Shown: piece by piece, positions 6,948-52,635 of the stretch
Layout: the number at the start of each line of letters is the position of its first letter
Position numbering within the stretch: the first letter of the stretch is position 1
NCBI RefSeq assembly: GCF_019352895.1
Contig: NZ_JAAAFX010000009.1
Coordinates: 1,403,486 to 1,467,485, forward strand
Direction of reading: 5' to 3'
DNA length: 64,000 bases
Origin: Variovorax boronicumulans
GTDB taxonomy: Bacteria > Pseudomonadota > Gammaproteobacteria > Burkholderiales > Burkholderiaceae_C
Position numbers and translations under genes: made by a program
The notes under the pieces: generated by a model
What the model saw: the letters and a program-made list of their open reading frames with translations, nothing else
What the model was told of the DNA's origin: nothing
Database searches by the model: none

Positions 6948-7862
6948 ATGCCTGCTTCAACGCGACCCGTCGATGCCGACCCGAGCGGGGCACCCGTCGA
7001 CGCCGACCCGAGCGGGGCACCCGTCGACGGTGTCCCGGGCCCCTTCGTCCAGCAAGGCGCAGCGGCCCTTTCGCGGTCTTCTTCGTCCGCATCGTGGGCC
7101 TTGTCGGCCTGGGGCGTCGCCTCCCCCGCGCTTGTGCACACCACGCTGCCGCCGACGGACGCGGCGCATCAAACCACCGTCGACGGCGTGCTGCGCCTGG
7201 CCCTGCACGACCTGCGAAATTCGCTGTCGGCGATCCAGCTCGGCCTCGAATTGCTCGGCCGGCGCGAGGGCCTGCCGCCGCCGTCTCAGCAGCCGCCCTC
7301 TGCCGTGCTGGCGCACATGGACAACGCCGCGCAGCGGGCACAGGCCTCGGTGGTCGAACTGGAAGACCTCACGCGCCTGGCCGCGGGCCGCAGGCTGGCG
7401 GTCTCGCCAGCGCACTTCTCGCTGCACACCGTCGTGCGCGACACGCTCGATGCCTGCCGGCTCATCGTGCCGGGTGTCGTGGTCGAGCACGACCGCCTCG
7501 GCGATGGCGACTGCAGGGGCGATCCGGCCCGCCTGGCGCAATTCCTGGGCCTGGCACTCGAAGAACTTTGCACCGCGGCCACGCCGGCGCGCGTCATCGT
7601 GATCAGCGAGGTCGCGGGCGACCGCTTTCGCATGGCCGTCCATGCCGCGGGCGCGGTCGGCGCCGCGCCGGCTGCGGACGATCCGGCGGCAGCGCCGGCG
7701 CGCGCGCAGGCCCGTCGCCGCGTGCTGCTCCAGGCCATCGCGCAGGCGCATGGCGGCGATGTCGGCTTCGAGGGCGGATACGCTTCGGGGGGCCGATCGG
7801 TCGAGGGCAACTTCTCGCGCCTTGCCGATCCGTCTTCCCCACCCGCACAAGGCCTTCCATGA
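6948..7862 (+). CDS. degenerate histidine-kinase-like / phosphotransferase-like protein
   Basis: The protein has 304 residues. Residues about 82-110 form a dimerisation/phosphoacceptor helix with an H-box (ALHDLRNSLSAIQLGLELL) in which the His is kept. The C-terminal half is shaped like an ATPase domain, but the N-box Asn is absent (region LALEELCTAATP) and no DxGxG or GxGLGL boxes are visible. It therefore looks like a pseudokinase or a ChpT-like phosphotransfer protein rather than an active kinase; this is inference. The first 60 residues are low complexity and contain a repeated PVDADPSGA unit. There are no transmembrane segments. ATG at 6948 follows gcggagag, a plausible ribosome-binding site. 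The stop overlaps the next start (ATGA). Confidence 0.55.
   Translation: MPASTRPVDADPSGAPVDADPSGAPVDGVPGPFVQQGAAALSRSSSSASWALSAWGVASPALVHTTLPPTDAAHQTTVDGVLRLALHDLRNSLSAIQLGLELLGRREGLPPPSQQPPSAVLAHMDNAAQRAQASVVELEDLTRLAAGRRLAVSPAHFSLHTVVRDTLDACRLIVPGVVVEHDRLGDGDCRGDPARLAQFLGLALEELCTAATPARVIVISEVAGDRFRMAVHAAGAVGAAPAADDPAAAPARAQARRRVLLQAIAQAHGGDVGFEGGYASGGRSVEGNFSRLADPSSPPAQGLP
6966..7019 (+). repeat. two 27-bp tandem repeats inside the kinase-like gene
   Basis: Two direct copies, 6966-6992 and 6993-7019, differ at one base (gatgcc versus gacgcc). A third copy starts (cccgtcgac) and then diverges. The unit length is a multiple of three, so the repeat only adds PVDADPSGA units to the N-terminal tail. 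This is a likely site of copy-number variation. Confidence 0.8.

Positions 7863-46467: not shown

Positions 46468-46484
<17 letters not shown>
45585..46484 (+). CDS. LysR-family regulator divergent from mmsA
   Basis: The protein has 299 residues. Start MDWDNLRFFLELARSGTLQS then AARRLAVDHTTVARRIQALE: the HTH has the D-H-T-T-V-A-R-R variant typical of the subfamily that controls amino acid or aldehyde catabolism. Divergence from mmsA with dyads between suggests it controls the valine operon. Its last 17 bases overlap the end of the convergent sigma-54 activator gene. Confidence 0.92.
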
Positions 46485-47826
<1,342 letters not shown>

Positions 47827-47833
47827 GGCCGAA

Positions 47834-49147
47834 CTAGAAGGAGAAGGGAATGCGCGCAGTGAGCGTGAGATCGGGCGTATCCCGTGTCAGGCCGGCCCCG
47901 ACCGAGATGTTCACCGTCCGCTTCGCGTCGTAGCGGTAGGAGTAGCCCAGCATCAGCGTGGCGAGCTGCGTGCGCACCGAGCCCGGCACCGGCAGGCCGT
48001 TCTGCTTGACGCGGCCGACCGAGTTCAGGTCGACGCCGATGCTGAACGAGGACTTGTCGTTGAGCGCCAGGCCCATGCCGAAGTTCATGCCGAGGATGTC
48101 GCCGGCCTTGAAGTCGCCGAGAAACTCGCGCGCGCCGTCGCGCACTTCGCGGCTCACGTTGCTGCGCTTGAAGTTGTGCGCATAGCTGAAGCTGCCGAAG
48201 AACACCACCGGGTCCGAGGGGAACAGCCAGGTAAGGCCGGGCTGCAGCGTGTAGAAGCCCGAGCCCGTGGGCAGGTCCAGCGGCAGGCCGGTGCCGGTGG
48301 TGTTGCCGACGCAGCGCGTGACGCAGTCGGTGACCACCTCGAACGGGTCCTTGCCGGTACGCGACTTGAAGCGCAACGTGCCGATCATGTAGGGCGTCGA
48401 TGCGTCGCCCTCGTTGAGCTGGTAGCGCGCCGTGACCTCGGCATCGCCAAGGCTGCGGCCGCTGGTCTCGAACACGTTGTCGATGGCCGAGCCGGTGAAG
48501 ATCTCCCGGCTGACGGTCGAGTTCGACCGGTAGACATAGGGCACCCGCGCCTCGATCTCGAAGCGGTTGGTGATGCCGAAGCGTCCGGTGAGCGCACTGG
48601 TGAGCGTGTTCTGCTTGACCTGCCGGACGTCGACCAGGCCGATCAGCAGCGACGGGATGATGGTGTAGCCGACCAGCGCCACCTGGTTGCTCGACGAGTA
48701 GGCGTACTGGAGCGAAGGCTCGAGCACCATCGAGCCCTTGGGCGTGAGGATGCCTGGCTGCTCGAACAGCGGCGCCACATTGAGCCGCGCATCCTGGCTC
48801 GGCGCCTGGCCGACCTGGATCGCACGGGGCGGCGCGCTCACGACCGGCCGGCTATCGACCGCCACCGTGGCCGCGGTCGCCGCCGCGGTGGCACGGTCGG
48901 AGGCGTTCCTGTTTTCCGCCAGCGAGCGCTCGAGTTCCCCGTAGCGCGATTCCTGCTGGGCCATGGACTGCTTCAGCGCCTCGATCTCGCGAGCCTGCTC
49001 GGCGACCTGGCGCTGCAGTTCCGTCAGCGCGGATGACGACGGCGCTCGGCGCGGCGTTGGCGGGGCCTGCTGCGCCTCGACGACCCCCCAGGCGGTCGCG
49101 GCGCTCATGCAGAGGACCCAGTTTCTCAAGGCTCTTGGTTGTTGCAT
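47834..49147 (-). CDS. FapF-like outer-membrane beta-barrel with N-terminal coiled coil
   Basis: The protein has 437 residues. Signal peptide (cut near VVEAQQ), then a heptad-patterned coiled coil (ALTELQRQVAEQAREIEALK then QSMAQQESRYGELERSLAEN, residues about 40-80), an Ala/Thr linker, and a beta-barrel of about 310 residues ending LTARIPFSF with terminal Phe. The barrel resembles the phenol-degradation meta-pathway/transporter family. An N-terminal coiled coil before a C-terminal barrel is the architecture of FapF, the trimeric pore that exports Fap amyloid in Pseudomonas. Start ATG at 49147 gives the signal peptide. Co-directional with the sigma-54 activator. Confidence 0.78.
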   Translation of the reverse strand: MQQPRALRNWVLCMSAATAWGVVEAQQAPPTPRRAPSSSALTELQRQVAEQAREIEALKQSMAQQESRYGELERSLAENRNASDRATAAATAATVAVDSRPVVSAPPRAIQVGQAPSQDARLNVAPLFEQPGILTPKGSMVLEPSLQYAYSSSNQVALVGYTIIPSLLIGLVDVRQVKQNTLTSALTGRFGITNRFEIEARVPYVYRSNSTVSREIFTGSAIDNVFETSGRSLGDAEVTARYQLNEGDASTPYMIGTLRFKSRTGKDPFEVVTDCVTRCVGNTTGTGLPLDLPTGSGFYTLQPGLTWLFPSDPVVFFGSFSYAHNFKRSNVSREVRDGAREFLGDFKAGDILGMNFGMGLALNDKSSFSIGVDLNSVGRVKQNGLPVPGSVRTQLATLMLGYSYRYDAKRTVNISVGAGLTRDTPDLTLTARIPFSF

Positions 49148-49212
49148 GCCAGCCCTCACACTTCTTTTTGGAACTTTCGTTGCAACGGATGCTATCGAGC
49201 CAAGTTCCCGCA

Positions 49213-49241
49213 TATTTACTTCTGCTAGAAATAATTGTTAA
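49213..49241 (-). promoter_or_regulatory. sigma-70 promoter candidate for the pore/activator operon
   Basis: On the minus strand, TTAACA (49241-49236; five of six matches to the -35 consensus), a 17-base spacer, and TAAATA (49218-49213). Transcription would start about 60 bases before the beta-barrel ATG. Confidence 0.45.
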
Positions 49242-49440
49242 CTTTTGTTCCTTACTACTTTGACACCTTGTTTCCGGTTTGAAAGGATCAATTAATCATG
49301 TTTACTCAAGCAACGGTTTGATCTGCAATTCGGCCTATTCCGAACGCGATAGTCCCGGCGACGCGACAAAATTTTTAACACGCCCAAACAACCAAGCCAT
49401 TGATTCAAAAGGATTTCAGTCCGAGTCCTTCCGATTTTCA

Positions 49441-49458
49441 TGTCACATCAATGTGACA
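49441..49458. promoter_or_regulatory. activator-binding palindrome (upstream activating site candidate)
   Basis: TGTCACATCAATGTGACA has perfect 8-base arms (TGTCACAT/ATGTGACA) around CA. It lies 74 bases before the -24/-12 promoter, the right distance for an enhancer site of the neighbouring sigma-54 activator. Confidence 0.7.
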
Positions 49459-49531
49459 AGATCCGCCGAATTCAGGATGTTGGAAGCTGTAAAACAACCC
49501 AATTTTCGTCGTCACCTGCAGCCAAAAGTAT

Positions 49532-49547
49532 TGGCATTGAATTTGCA
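49532..49547 (+). promoter_or_regulatory. sigma-54 (-24/-12) promoter
   Basis: TGGCATTGAATTTGCA matches TGGCAC-N5-TTGCA with the invariant GG (49533-49534) and GC (49545-49546) at the required spacing. The predicted transcription start is about 49558, leaving a leader of about 55 bases before the fibre gene ATG with its ttggagac ribosome-binding site. Confidence 0.8.
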
Positions 49548-49613
49548 TTGAGCAAACCGTTGCGCATCTGCACAACTCTTGGCTCGAAATTCAACCAACC
49601 TTTTGGAGACTTC

Positions 49614-50897
49614 ATGAACAAGACACTTCTGGCTTCGGCCATCGCGCTCGGCCTCGGATTCGCCTCCACGGCCGTGCTGGCTGACATCACGCAGTCGGGA
49701 ACCGGTGCCAACGCGGCCGACGACGCACGCGCCTGGCAGGACAACAGTTCGGACTCCAGCACCAGTACCAAGACCGACACCAAGACGAACACCAACACCA
49801 AGACCACCACCACCACCAAGACCGACTCCAGCACGAACCTGCGCACCAGCGACAGCCGCGACCAGAGCACCAACCGCAACTCCGGCGCTGCCCGCGCGGC
49901 TGCCGATCGCTCGGTGGCGCTCAACAATGGCTCGACCGGCACCTTCTCGAATGCCTTCAACGTCACTACGGCCACGGCCAGCAGCACACTCAGTGGCGTG
50001 GTCACCGGCAACACGGTGCACGGCATCGGCAACTACGCCTACAACACCGGCTCGGCGGCAGGCGCCACCGGCCAGGGTGGTTATGGCGGCACGGGACGGG
50101 GCGGCACGGCCGAAGGTGCGGGTGTCGGCGGCAACGGTGCCGTGGGCACCGGCGCCGTGGGCGCGACCGGCGGCAGTTCTTCCAACGGTGCCATCAGCCA
50201 CGGCAGTGCCACCAACGGCAGCGCCTCGGCCGGCGACGGCGGCAGGGGCTCGGGCGGCAGCGCCTCGGGCAGCAACTCCAGCGGCTCGGCCACGGCCAAC
50301 GGCGCCGGCGGCGGCGGCGGTGGTGGCGGCAGCGGCAGCGGCGGCAACGGGGGCATGACCGGCAGCAGCGGCAACGCCAACGGTGGCGGCCTGATCGCCA
50401 GCGGCGACGGCGGCACCAGCGGCAACACCGGCACGGGCGGCGCAGGCGGCACGGGCACCGGCACGGGCGCAGCGGGTGGTGCGGGTGGGACCGGCGGCTC
50501 GCCGATGACCGCCAACACCGGGCCGCGCACGGCCGGCAACGGCACCGGCGGCGCCGGCGGCGCGGCCACCAACGGCAGTGCCACCAACGGGAACGCCAGC
50601 AACGGCAACAACACGGCCGGCAACGGCGGTGCGGGCGGCAGCGGCACGGGCGGCGCCGGCGGCGCGGGCAGCGGCGGCACCAACACCGCGATGGGCGGCA
50701 CCGGTGGCGTCGGCCAGGGCGGCACTGGTGGCGCCGGCGGCACCAACACCGTGAGCGCGGGGACCTTCAACATGTCCAACACGATGACTTCGGTCGGGCA
50801 ATCGGCCGCCGGCATCATGATCGCCAACCAGCAGAGCGGGATCAGCAGCCTGGTGCAGCAGAGCGTCAACGTCCAGGCCAACCTGAGCGTGCGCTGA
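49614..50897 (+). CDS. Gly/Ser/Asn/Thr-rich exported fibre-type protein
   Basis: The protein has 427 residues with a signal peptide (MNKTLLASAIALGLGFASTA, cut after VLA). Then come a Thr/Lys/Asn/Asp low-complexity stretch (TKTDTKTNTNTKTTTTTKTD), a region with paired Asn and Gly (STLSGVVTGNTVHGIGNYAY), about 230 residues of Gly-Gly-x, Asn-Gly-Ser and Ala-Thr-Asn-Gly units, and a 48-residue ordered tail (NQQSGISSLVQQSVNVQANL). It has no cysteine. Composition, export signal and neighbours point to an extracellular structural subunit, in the position of FapB/FapC. PE-PGRS proteins share the composition but not the setting. Expressed from the sigma-54 promoter. Confidence 0.8.
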   Translation: MNKTLLASAIALGLGFASTAVLADITQSGTGANAADDARAWQDNSSDSSTSTKTDTKTNTNTKTTTTTKTDSSTNLRTSDSRDQSTNRNSGAARAAADRSVALNNGSTGTFSNAFNVTTATASSTLSGVVTGNTVHGIGNYAYNTGSAAGATGQGGYGGTGRGGTAEGAGVGGNGAVGTGAVGATGGSSSNGAISHGSATNGSASAGDGGRGSGGSASGSNSSGSATANGAGGGGGGGGSGSGGNGGMTGSSGNANGGGLIASGDGGTSGNTGTGGAGGTGTGTGAAGGAGGTGGSPMTANTGPRTAGNGTGGAGGAATNGSATNGNASNGNNTAGNGGAGGSGTGGAGGAGSGGTNTAMGGTGGVGQGGTGGAGGTNTVSAGTFNMSNTMTSVGQSAAGIMIANQQSGISSLVQQSVNVQANLSVR

Positions 50898-50971: not shown

Positions 50972-51343
50972 ATGCGTACCACGTCCCTGCGGCGCGGCCT
51001 GGCAACGGCGGCGATCGCGCTGCTGCCGGCTCTGCTGCCCTTCCCGCTCGCGGCCCAGACCGGCCATCGAGCGCCCGATCCCGCAGCCGCGCGCCCGGCC
51101 TTCGCCGCACCCGTGGATGCCTCGGCACTGGCCACCATACGGGGCGGTCACGAACTCACGCAGAACGACATGCGGCTCGACGGCGTGACCGCCGGCAACA
51201 CCGCGAGCCAGGTCACGACCGGCGCCAACACGATCTCCACGGGCGCGTTCTCGGGCATGGCCGGCTTGCCGCTGGTGGTGCAGAACTCGGGGGCGAACGT
51301 GCTGATCCAGAACGCCGTGATCGTCAACGTGAAGATGCAATAG
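50972..51343 (+). CDS. small exported protein with Arg-Gly-Gly motif (FapE/minor-subunit position)
   Basis: The protein has 123 residues with a signal peptide (cut near PLAAQT). Residues 49-59 read DASALATIRGG, followed by HELTQNDMRLDGVTAGNTAS and a tail GLPLVVQNSGANVLIQNAVI. The tail pattern (hydrophobic, Gln-Asn-Ser-Gly, Val-Leu-Ile-Gln) resembles the end of the preceding fibre protein. The Leu-x-x-Ile-Arg-Gly-Gly motif recurs in the protein two genes downstream. Function unrecognised by name; likely a minor subunit or a nucleator. A good ribosome-binding site (cgaggag) precedes the ATG. Confidence 0.72.
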   Translation: MRTTSLRRGLATAAIALLPALLPFPLAAQTGHRAPDPAAARPAFAAPVDASALATIRGGHELTQNDMRLDGVTAGNTASQVTTGANTISTGAFSGMAGLPLVVQNSGANVLIQNAVIVNVKMQ

Positions 51344-51370: not shown

Positions 51371-52066
51371 ATGTCGCCTCTGCGCCTTCTGTGCCCCGCC
51401 GCCCTGCTCTGCCTGGCGGCCTCGGGCACCGGCCTGGCCCAGGACCGCGCGGTCCGGCTGACCGAGATGGGGGGCGCGAGCTATGCGGTCCCGGTGCGCA
51501 GCATGCAGCAGATCAAGCAGGCCGGCACGCTGCTGCAGCAGTACGACTTCAGCTGCGGCTCGGCCGCCGTCGCGACGCTGCTGACACACCACTACGGCCG
51601 CACGACCTCCGAACAGGAAGTGTTCGAGCAGATGTTCGCGGCCGGCGACCAGGACAAGATCCGGCGCGAGGGCTTCTCGCTGCTCGACATGAAGCGCTTC
51701 CTGCACACGAGGGGCTTTGAAGCCGACGGTTTCCAGCAGCCGCTCGACAAGCTGCGCGAGTCCGGCGTGCCGGCGATCGCCCTGATCACGGAGAACGGTT
51801 ACCACCACTTCGTGGTCGTGAAGGGGCTGGACAACGAGCGCGTGCTGATCGGTGACCCGGCCAACGGCACGCGCGCGATGGCGCGCGCCGCCTTCGAGGC
51901 GCAGTGGAAGCAGAAGCTGCTCTTCGTGGTCCACAACCGGATGGAGATCGCACGCTTCAACCTCGCGTCCGACTGGCGCGCCGCGCCCGCGGCGCCGCTG
52001 GCCTCGGGCCTGCTGCGCGATGCACTGCTCAATTCGATGCCCAGAAACGGGCCGGGACAGTTCTGA
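51371..52066 (+). CDS. exported C39-family cysteine peptidase (FapD-like)
   Basis: The protein has 231 residues with a signal peptide (cut near LAQDRA), so it is periplasmic. The C39 active site is complete: QQYDFSCGSAAVATLL with nucleophile Cys62 and preceding Gln, NGYHHFVVVKGL with His146, and LIGDPANGTRAM with Asp162. Bacteriocin-processing C39 domains sit on ABC transporters and cut after Gly-Gly, but this one stands alone, as does FapD. It ends with ATGA overlap into the next gene. Confidence 0.85.
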   Translation: MSPLRLLCPAALLCLAASGTGLAQDRAVRLTEMGGASYAVPVRSMQQIKQAGTLLQQYDFSCGSAAVATLLTHHYGRTTSEQEVFEQMFAAGDQDKIRREGFSLLDMKRFLHTRGFEADGFQQPLDKLRESGVPAIALITENGYHHFVVVKGLDNERVLIGDPANGTRAMARAAFEAQWKQKLLFVVHNRMEIARFNLASDWRAAPAAPLASGLLRDALLNSMPRNGPGQF

Positions 52067-52635
52067 TGAACACCGCACACACCCCCGCCCGCCTGGCCCT
52101 GACCCTGCTGCTGGCCATGGGCGCCGCAGCCGCGGCGAACGCACAGCCCGGCAAGGCGCCCGCCGCGGACCGGACGACCTGGATGACCGTCGGCGACGCC
52201 ACGCTGGAGCGGATGCGCGGCGGCTTCGACCTGGGCGGCGGGCTGATGGTGTCTTTCGGCATCAGCCGCTCGATCACGGTCAACGGCGTGCTGCTGGCCG
52301 CGATCACCTTCAACGTGCCGGACGTGGCGCGCATCACGCCGGTCCAGGCCGCGGCCCTCGAGCGGCAGATGAACAGCGCCAACCTGGTCCAGGTCGGCCC
52401 GAACAACAGCGTGGTGGCGACAACCGGCGTGGCGGGGGCAGCTGGCGTGGCAGGGGCAGCCGGTGTGGCGGCGCCGACCAGCCTGCCGGCGGCTGCGACC
52501 GTGGTCCAGAACACCCTGGACAACCAGAGCATCCAGACCCGCACGCTGATCGACACCACGACCAACGCCATGAGCCTGGCCAAGAGCATCAATGCGGCGG
52601 GCGCCCTGCGCGATGCGCTGCTGCGCGGGCGCTGA
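52066..52635 (+). CDS. second small exported protein with Arg-Gly-Gly motif
   Basis: The protein has 189 residues with a signal peptide (cut near ANAQPG). Residues 43-53 read GDATLERMRGG, matching the motif in the 123-residue protein. Then FDLGGGLMVSFGISRSITVN, an Ala/Gly/Val repeat (TGVAGAAGVAGAAGVAA), and a tail VVQNTLDNQSIQTRTLIDTT resembling an amyloid-associated helix/strand segment. It starts within the C39 gene's stop, so it is made with the peptidase and could be its substrate. Possibly a fibre anchor or FapE analogue. Confidence 0.72.
   Translation: MNTAHTPARLALTLLLAMGAAAAANAQPGKAPAADRTTWMTVGDATLERMRGGFDLGGGLMVSFGISRSITVNGVLLAAITFNVPDVARITPVQAAALERQMNSANLVQVGPNNSVVATTGVAGAAGVAGAAGVAAPTSLPAAATVVQNTLDNQSIQTRTLIDTTTNAMSLAKSINAAGALRDALLRGR

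Follow-up and report, generated by a model that had tools for sequence, protein, structure and literature searches.

A probable VpsR-type activator site and sigma-54 promoter in the control region of a Fap-like amyloid operon of Variovorax boronicumulans

Only in a few bacteria has it been worked out in detail how functional-amyloid secretion systems are switched on. In Variovorax boronicumulans (genome of 6.53 Mb), the gene of a repetitive secreted protein lies divergent to the genes of a FapF-like pore and of a regulator, which raises the question of how the fibre genes are switched on. The locus was analysed in a window of 64,000 nucleotides, the whole stretch of DNA under consideration, which is part of contig C3. 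The stretch between the divergent genes is very probably the control region of a Fap-like amyloid operon, where a VpsR-type activator would drive a sigma-54 fibre promoter from a palindrome. The features are listed in Table 1.

Table 1 Features of the Fap-like locus, with positions in the window
Feature	Position	Strand	Evidence or remark
Activator: VpsR, sigma-54-interacting AAA+ and Fis-type HTH domains	46468..47826	-	PF20161 E 1e-13, PF00158 E 5e-68, PF02954 E 2e-8
FapF-like outer-membrane amyloid transporter (pore)	47834..49147	-	PDB FapF 5o67 E 7e-33
Probable upstream activating sequence TGTCACATCAATGTGACA = TGTCACAT-CA-ATGTGACA	49441..49458	.	inverted repeat, conserved
Sigma-54 -24/-12 element TGGCATTGAATTTGCA	49532..49547	+	GG-N10-GC, TGGCAC-N5-TTGC context
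Ribosome-binding site GGAG of the fibre gene	49605..49608	+	GGAG before ATG in aligned rows reaching there
Fibre gene: signal peptide, Gly/Ala/Asn/Thr-rich repetitive secreted protein	49614..50897	+	
Small secreted protein, putative minor subunit or accessory factor	50972..51343	+	
FapD-like C39 peptidase	51371..52066	+	PF03412 E 2e-23, over cut-off
Protein at FapE position	52066..52635	+	putative FapE, by position

The best solved relatives of the pore are the FapF structures PDB 5o65, 5o67 and 5o68 (E 9e-32 to 7e-33), and the match to 5o67 spans pore residues 122-437. Against the NCBIfam FapF model the pore reaches 159 bits, under the equivalog cut-off of 700, and the peptidase reaches 125.9 bits against NCBIfam C39_FapD, under the equivalog cut-off of 330. 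The fibre and the small protein have no Pfam or NCBIfam match at E 0.01, FapC and FapB included; stretches of the fibre protein, often the C-terminus, find matches in relatives. The genes do not form a single fapABCDEF operon, as pore and activator are divergent from the fibre, small-protein, FapD-like and FapE-like genes. Missed equivalog cut-offs, a fibre without a family match and a divergent layout are the reasons for the term Fap-like instead of canonical Fap. Judged from the sequence, it is a Fap-like amyloid secretion system. With the classical fapABCDEF system, as described in the available part of PMC3792158, it shares the FapF-like pore, the FapD-like C39 peptidase and a secreted repetitive fibre protein. 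Unlike in the classical system, no fapA is recognised, the fibre lacks a family match and the pore is split off and divergent; the same part of the source gives a separation of fapF in 4 of 16 genera.

The activator has 452 residues and is encoded 7 bases beyond the pore gene. A sequence-only reading of the window had placed it adjacent to the promoter; it does belong to the same cluster, but the pore gene lies between. That reading had included neither amyloid secretion of the Fap-like type, nor the VpsR domain of the activator, nor the three boxes of most relatives that are described below. All three activator domains exceed the Pfam cut-offs, and the protein is the sole VpsR-domain match in its own genome. 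VpsR of Vibrio cholerae has a homologous N-terminal domain (PF20161; PDB 7y19, E 9e-4) and a homologous AAA+ domain (PDB 7v2b). Among 15 aligned activators, the loop motif reads GSFTGA in the window, L042-L044, L010 and L011 and GAFTGA in the remaining nine, and the HTH is among the most conserved parts. The host genome contains one rpoN gene (TIGR02395, 422 bits).

Upstream of the fibre gene, TGGCATTGAATTTGCA carries GG and GC at the -24/-12 spacing, as had been read from it earlier, and it is conserved in relatives. It is the sole exact match to TGGCAYNNNNNTTGCW in the 64-kb window, against an expectation of 0.12 from shuffles, and at least one exact match occurs in 12 of 100 window shuffles. 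With one mismatch allowed, five matches to the promoter pattern are found against 3.88 expected, which is no excess. The match within the window is therefore weak on its own, and the case rests on conservation in relatives. A fibre transcription start is predicted at about 49558. A second -24/-12-like match, TGGAACTTTCGTTGCA at 49169-49184 (plus strand, score 0.89), occurs in the window and L042 only and was attributed to chance. A terminator-like stem at 49521-49535 was rejected, with 0.6 expected by chance.

The palindrome TGTCACATCAATGTGACA is composed of two perfect 8-bp arms with a CA centre, and its centre lies about 108 bases 5' of the predicted start. An 18-bp perfect palindrome 74 bases upstream had been proposed at this place; the repeat itself is confirmed, but 16 of the 18 positions pair, and 73 bases separate it from the -24 element. 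No further copy with up to three mismatches is present in the 64-kb window, its own reverse strand aside. Six other copies with one or two mismatches occur in the same genome; none has a -24/-12 site scoring at least 0.9 within 500 bases (scores of 0.81-0.86 occur), and no second target of the palindrome was found among them. The closest of these copies, TGTCACATCGATGTCACA (C10:360554-360571, L002:1501-1518), has one mismatch and is located between ppx-like and pstS-like genes, as read from open frames. It resembles a Pho-box direct repeat, and we take it to be no enhancer of the fibre system. CRP- and NtrC-type readings of the palindrome were rejected on comparison of the half-sites.

To relatives of the window, the comparison was extended at the levels of genus, family and class. 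Of 100 genomes from the genus, 30 contain a pore relative. The first round consisted of 33 loci, namely the window, 30 genus regions (one genome gave two), Noviherbaspirillum L010 and Herminiimonas L011; L068 and L069, whose contigs end inside the pore gene, and L050, which has no fibre gene, were left out of its counts. All 30 first-round loci that contain the fibre gene have a strong -24/-12 site ahead of its ATG. The GC of this site is located 66-79 bases 5' of the ATG in 26 of them; an earlier ATG was taken in that placement for L052, L053, L054 and L070, where the distance from the start of the site to the ATG is 80-89 bases. The pore gene of L050 (G063:C97) is FapF-like and additional to a full locus elsewhere in the same genome. 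L050 shows neither palindrome nor -24/-12 element, and no activator or fibre gene was found in the stretch around its pore. In L071 (G005:C1:3504945-3506239) the pore matches as two overlapping pieces and not as one frame, which indicates a broken gene or an assembly error.

At the family level, a search with a profile of pore proteins found 21 of 250 genomes and 15 of 141 genera, own genome included, and the loci of 18 of the 20 other genomes were analysed. The activator-pore pair is found in tandem in eight of them (L095-L102), with the fibre side divergent in seven; the contig of L095 stops before the fibre gene. In L102 the small-protein, FapD and FapE genes are divergent, tblastn gave no fibre match, and the fibre start was set at a signal-peptide-like ATG. 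The activator is turned against the pore in L103, L104 and L107. Seven of the 18 loci are without an activator match in the analysed stretch, five of these being distant pore relatives of 25-26% identity.

The palindrome is found at up to one, two and three mismatches in 9, 27 and 36 of 36 fibre upstream regions, or in 10, 28 and 37 of 37 loci with the window included, close relatives being counted. Shuffles of the 37 regions predict 0.00, 0.09 and 0.90 regions, respectively. Across the 37 regions, the start of the -24/-12 site lies 77-106 bases from the fibre ATG. L046 and L048 are counted among them with an ATG that is too early, and both have sigma-54 sites. Two further loci stand outside this set: L095, with its contig end before the fibre gene, which has one perfect box and one with two mismatches, and L103, whose boxes were missed by the two-mismatch scan and found only with a weight matrix. 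Palindrome and -24/-12 element are thus both conserved beside orthologues of the activator, the observation on which the sequence-only reading had proposed to be judged. This pattern supports its proposal of a sigma-54 fibre promoter and of a palindrome further upstream as activating site, to which the activator would probably bind.

The weight matrix was symmetrised and built from the best box per locus, so that the other boxes were not part of its training. With it, three boxes are found in 31 of 37 loci. Counted from where the -24 element begins, they mostly sit at about -365, -240 and -139, within ranges of -342 to -384, -217 to -260 and -117 to -148. A permissive threshold of 7.5 bits applied to this count; of the resulting 93 boxes, nine stay below 10 bits, and six of these nine are innermost ones. 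L099 has two boxes. One strong box is found in the window (-91), L042 (-91), L043 (-104), L044 (-104) and L102 (-127), with an additional weak second box in L044. In a background comparison of 36 loci, the window omitted, 106 positions of at least 7.5 bits occur in 20.8 kb of fibre upstream regions versus 8 in 399.7 kb of flanking DNA; the respective numbers are 93 versus 2 at 10 bits or more and 82 versus 0 at 13 bits or more. The single box of the window is probably a reduced form in its own clade, a direction of change deduced from its rarity. Differences between box spacings are often close to whole helical turns (R 0.53-0.64 for distinct spacings), which is suggestive only, as the loci are related and neighbouring spacing values are interdependent, so that the statistic is not independent evidence.

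Rearranged loci bear on whether the module follows the fibre gene. In L103, pore and activator face apart and the fibre gene is on the far side of the activator. The fibre ATG (7711) is preceded by two boxes, which score 17.2 and 19.5 bits, and no box of at least 10 bits exists elsewhere in the locus, the intergenic region of pore and activator included. A by-eye -24/-12 candidate, AGGTATCGTTCTTGCG, lies 81 bases 5' of this ATG with a score of 0.75, and a better match (0.94) is found at 7306, upstream of the boxes. This weak -24/-12 part slightly reduces the confidence in activator-driven control of the fibre promoter. An activator without any box is found in L104 and L107, whose fibre genes are outside the analysed stretch. 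The loci in which no activator was found (L105, L106, L108-L112 and L050) are without a box of at least 10 bits.

Six held-out records (three Cupriavidus, Aeromonas, Photobacterium, Vibrio) were examined after the box pattern had been fixed. The Cupriavidus records L165, L167 and L170 are megaplasmids with a colinear gene order from fibre to pore. C. metallidurans CH34, C. campinensis and Cupriavidus sp. EM10 each have one generalised box and, downstream of it, a -24/-12-like site scoring 0.87 that precedes the fibre match; box and site are 138, 137 and 137 bases apart, respectively. In CH34 this site starts 131 bases 5' of the fibre ATG, versus 77-106 in the 37 loci. In none of the three do the analysed 17 kb, from about 3 kb ahead of the box to 8 kb past the pore, contain an activator; a VpsR-domain regulator is encoded 58-71 kb off on the same replicon, to which the search was limited. 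The Aeromonas, Photobacterium and Vibrio records, three of the six, contain no generalised box. A similar activator is present in the Aeromonas and Photobacterium records, and the former also has a -24/-12 site of 0.97.

In the class as a whole, 69 of 369 genomes have NCBIfam FapF matches. Twenty loci were taken from the stronger of these matches and are therefore a non-random sample. An enhancer-binding protein similar to the activator is found in 18 of the 20, within about 7 kb on either side of the pore; that of L149 is only partial at a contig end, and L146 and L162 have none in the stretch. The VpsR cut-off is reached by 11 of the 15 class-level activators that were tested with their N-terminus, while L152 is just under it and L151, L157 and L158 have no match. 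The pattern TGTnnCR-N4-YGnnACA, which was drawn up after inspection of some class-level loci, has 11 matches in 294,176 bases versus 0.6 expected, in 10 of the 20 loci. Four of these ten loci (L147, L149, L151 and L157) had no part in drawing up the pattern, as they were inspected only later; the first two of them belong to one genus. Ten of the 11 matches are located 70-170 bases before a -24/-12-like site (at least 0.78) facing fap genes, compared with a rate of 0.11 for random positions, and five of those ten sites score at least 0.9 (random rate 0.005). The pattern is absent from the other ten loci and is thus widespread but not universal, or has drifted. Slightly favoured is the view that Fap-like amyloids of Beta- and Gammaproteobacteria share a module of VpsR-type enhancer-binding protein, TGTnnCR-N4-YGnnACA and sigma-54 promoter, commonly with three spaced enhancers in Burkholderiales and collapsed to a single near-perfect site in one Variovorax clade.

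Control of the fibre promoter by the activator has some observations against it besides L103, namely the GSFTGA loop of the window in place of GAFTGA, the class-level loci and held-out records that lack the box, the boxless L104 and L107, and the Cupriavidus records with no activator close by. Other explanations of the two elements have to be weighed against it. The -24/-12 element could be real and the palindrome a site for a different regulator (repressor or global factor), with the activator acting via another site or promoter. In line with this are the box kept by the three Cupriavidus records, whose analysed 17 kb contain no activator, and the half-sites GTCA and TGAC, which also occur in the boxes of other regulators. 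Such a regulator is nevertheless unlikely: the boxes start 91-384 bases 5' of the -24 element, a distance covered by the classical enhancer range, and do not lie across the promoter; they are nearly confined to fibre promoter regions and are missing, at 10 bits, from the eight loci in which no activator was found; and the HTH belongs to the best conserved parts of the activator. The palindrome might instead serve autoregulation of the divergent pore/activator operon and not the fibre genes. It does lie within the shared intergenic region, and in 28 of 31 three-box loci a distance of 102-176 bases separates the outermost box from the aligned start of the pore gene. The arrangement of L103, with its boxes before the fibre gene and none between pore and activator, makes this quite improbable, together with the Cupriavidus box upstream of the fibre gene in a colinear order. 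Dual control of the fibre and pore sides by the palindrome may occur.

The VpsR-like N-terminal domain of the activator would also suit a protein that works with sigma-70 as VpsR does, the -24/-12 element being a relic; VpsR acts without RpoN according to the part of PMC5552954 considered here. The strong conservation of the element, the GSFTGA or GAFTGA loop kept in 15 of 15 aligned activators and the lack of a sigma-70 consensus match in 49100-49650 leave very little room for such a relic. Coincidence of a chance -24/-12 match and a chance palindrome could appeal to the equally good promoter matches in the window shuffles given above, but is refuted by conservation and spacing across the loci to the point of being hardly credible.

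With control of the fibre promoter by the activator as the preferred reading, sigma-54 RNA polymerase would wait at the -24/-12 element in a closed complex. The activator would bind the palindrome as a dimer via its Fis-type HTH, oligomerise, loop to the promoter and open the complex by ATP hydrolysis. The fibre, small-protein, FapD-like and FapE-like genes would thereby be switched on together. This order of binding, looping and ATP-driven opening is textbook knowledge for enhancer-binding proteins. By analogy with BrfA, BerB and VpsR, c-di-GMP may be the likeliest signal for the activator, a proposal with roughly even chances.

The regulatory principle is known, since an RpoN promoter and the adjacent BrfA already control fap in Pseudomonas fluorescens. 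As far as the consulted part of PMC9207406 goes, the -24/-12 promoter of fapA-E in strain PF07 was mapped by 5'-RACE and is RpoN-dependent, and fap expression needs BrfA, a Fis-family enhancer-binding protein encoded beside the fap genes. A further study of P. fluorescens likewise found fap expression to be increased by RpoN (PMC8202526, seen in excerpt). The locus described here likewise has an RpoN-type promoter before the fibre operon and a regulator encoded nearby, BrfA being likened by its description only. The gene order differs: in PF07 it is fapABCDEF with brfA downstream and reversed, whereas here pore and activator diverge from the fibre, small-protein, FapD and FapE genes. The main texts of PMC9207406 and PMC13101488 do not mention a palindrome, an upstream activating site or VpsR. 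In Burkholderia cenocepacia, BerB binds c-di-GMP and drives the sigma-54 promoter of berA, a regulator of the biofilm matrix (PMC5552954, in the part available). Its target is thus an exopolysaccharide regulator gene, whereas it is an amyloid fibre operon here; BerB sites were mapped by footprint, and the term "inverted repeat" does not occur in the main text of that article. VpsR differs in its independence of RpoN, as stated in the same part of PMC5552954, from the present locus with its conserved -24/-12 element.

In the partly accessible literature that was searched, no paper on the palindrome, the three-enhancer array or the module in Variovorax was identified. The palindrome, its three-copy array and their breadth look new, with Guo 2024 (Microbiol Res 287:127864, on BrfA) outside the comparison. 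A conserved enhancer motif at an amyloid promoter offers a sequence handle to find and time amyloid expression in many environmental species, and it links this expression to VpsR-type regulators, some of which sense c-di-GMP. Natural promoters with one and three boxes would allow a test of how enhancer number sets the switch.

Pore and activator would be transcribed divergently from another promoter, and with a separate promoter the secretion machinery and the activator can exist before the fibre subunit. A sigma-70 promoter had been assigned to this operon on the earlier reading; a consensus scan of 49100-49650 finds no match (0.5 expected by chance), which leaves that assignment unsupported. 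Nor does the minus strand of the same region contain a sigma-54 site at up to one mismatch or with a score of at least 0.75. On the strand of the pore operon, the window's clade has only a -10-like TAGnAT, and the main Variovorax clade a weak TTGnnn-N17/18-TAnnCT, both read by eye. In PF07, fapF is expressed unlike fapA-E and is not induced alongside them, which fits a separate control of the pore (PMC9207406, same part as above). In many rows of the main clade, TAnnCT is preceded on the minus strand by conserved sequence around TTACnTTTGTTTnCAACTTG, which does not appear in the window's clade.
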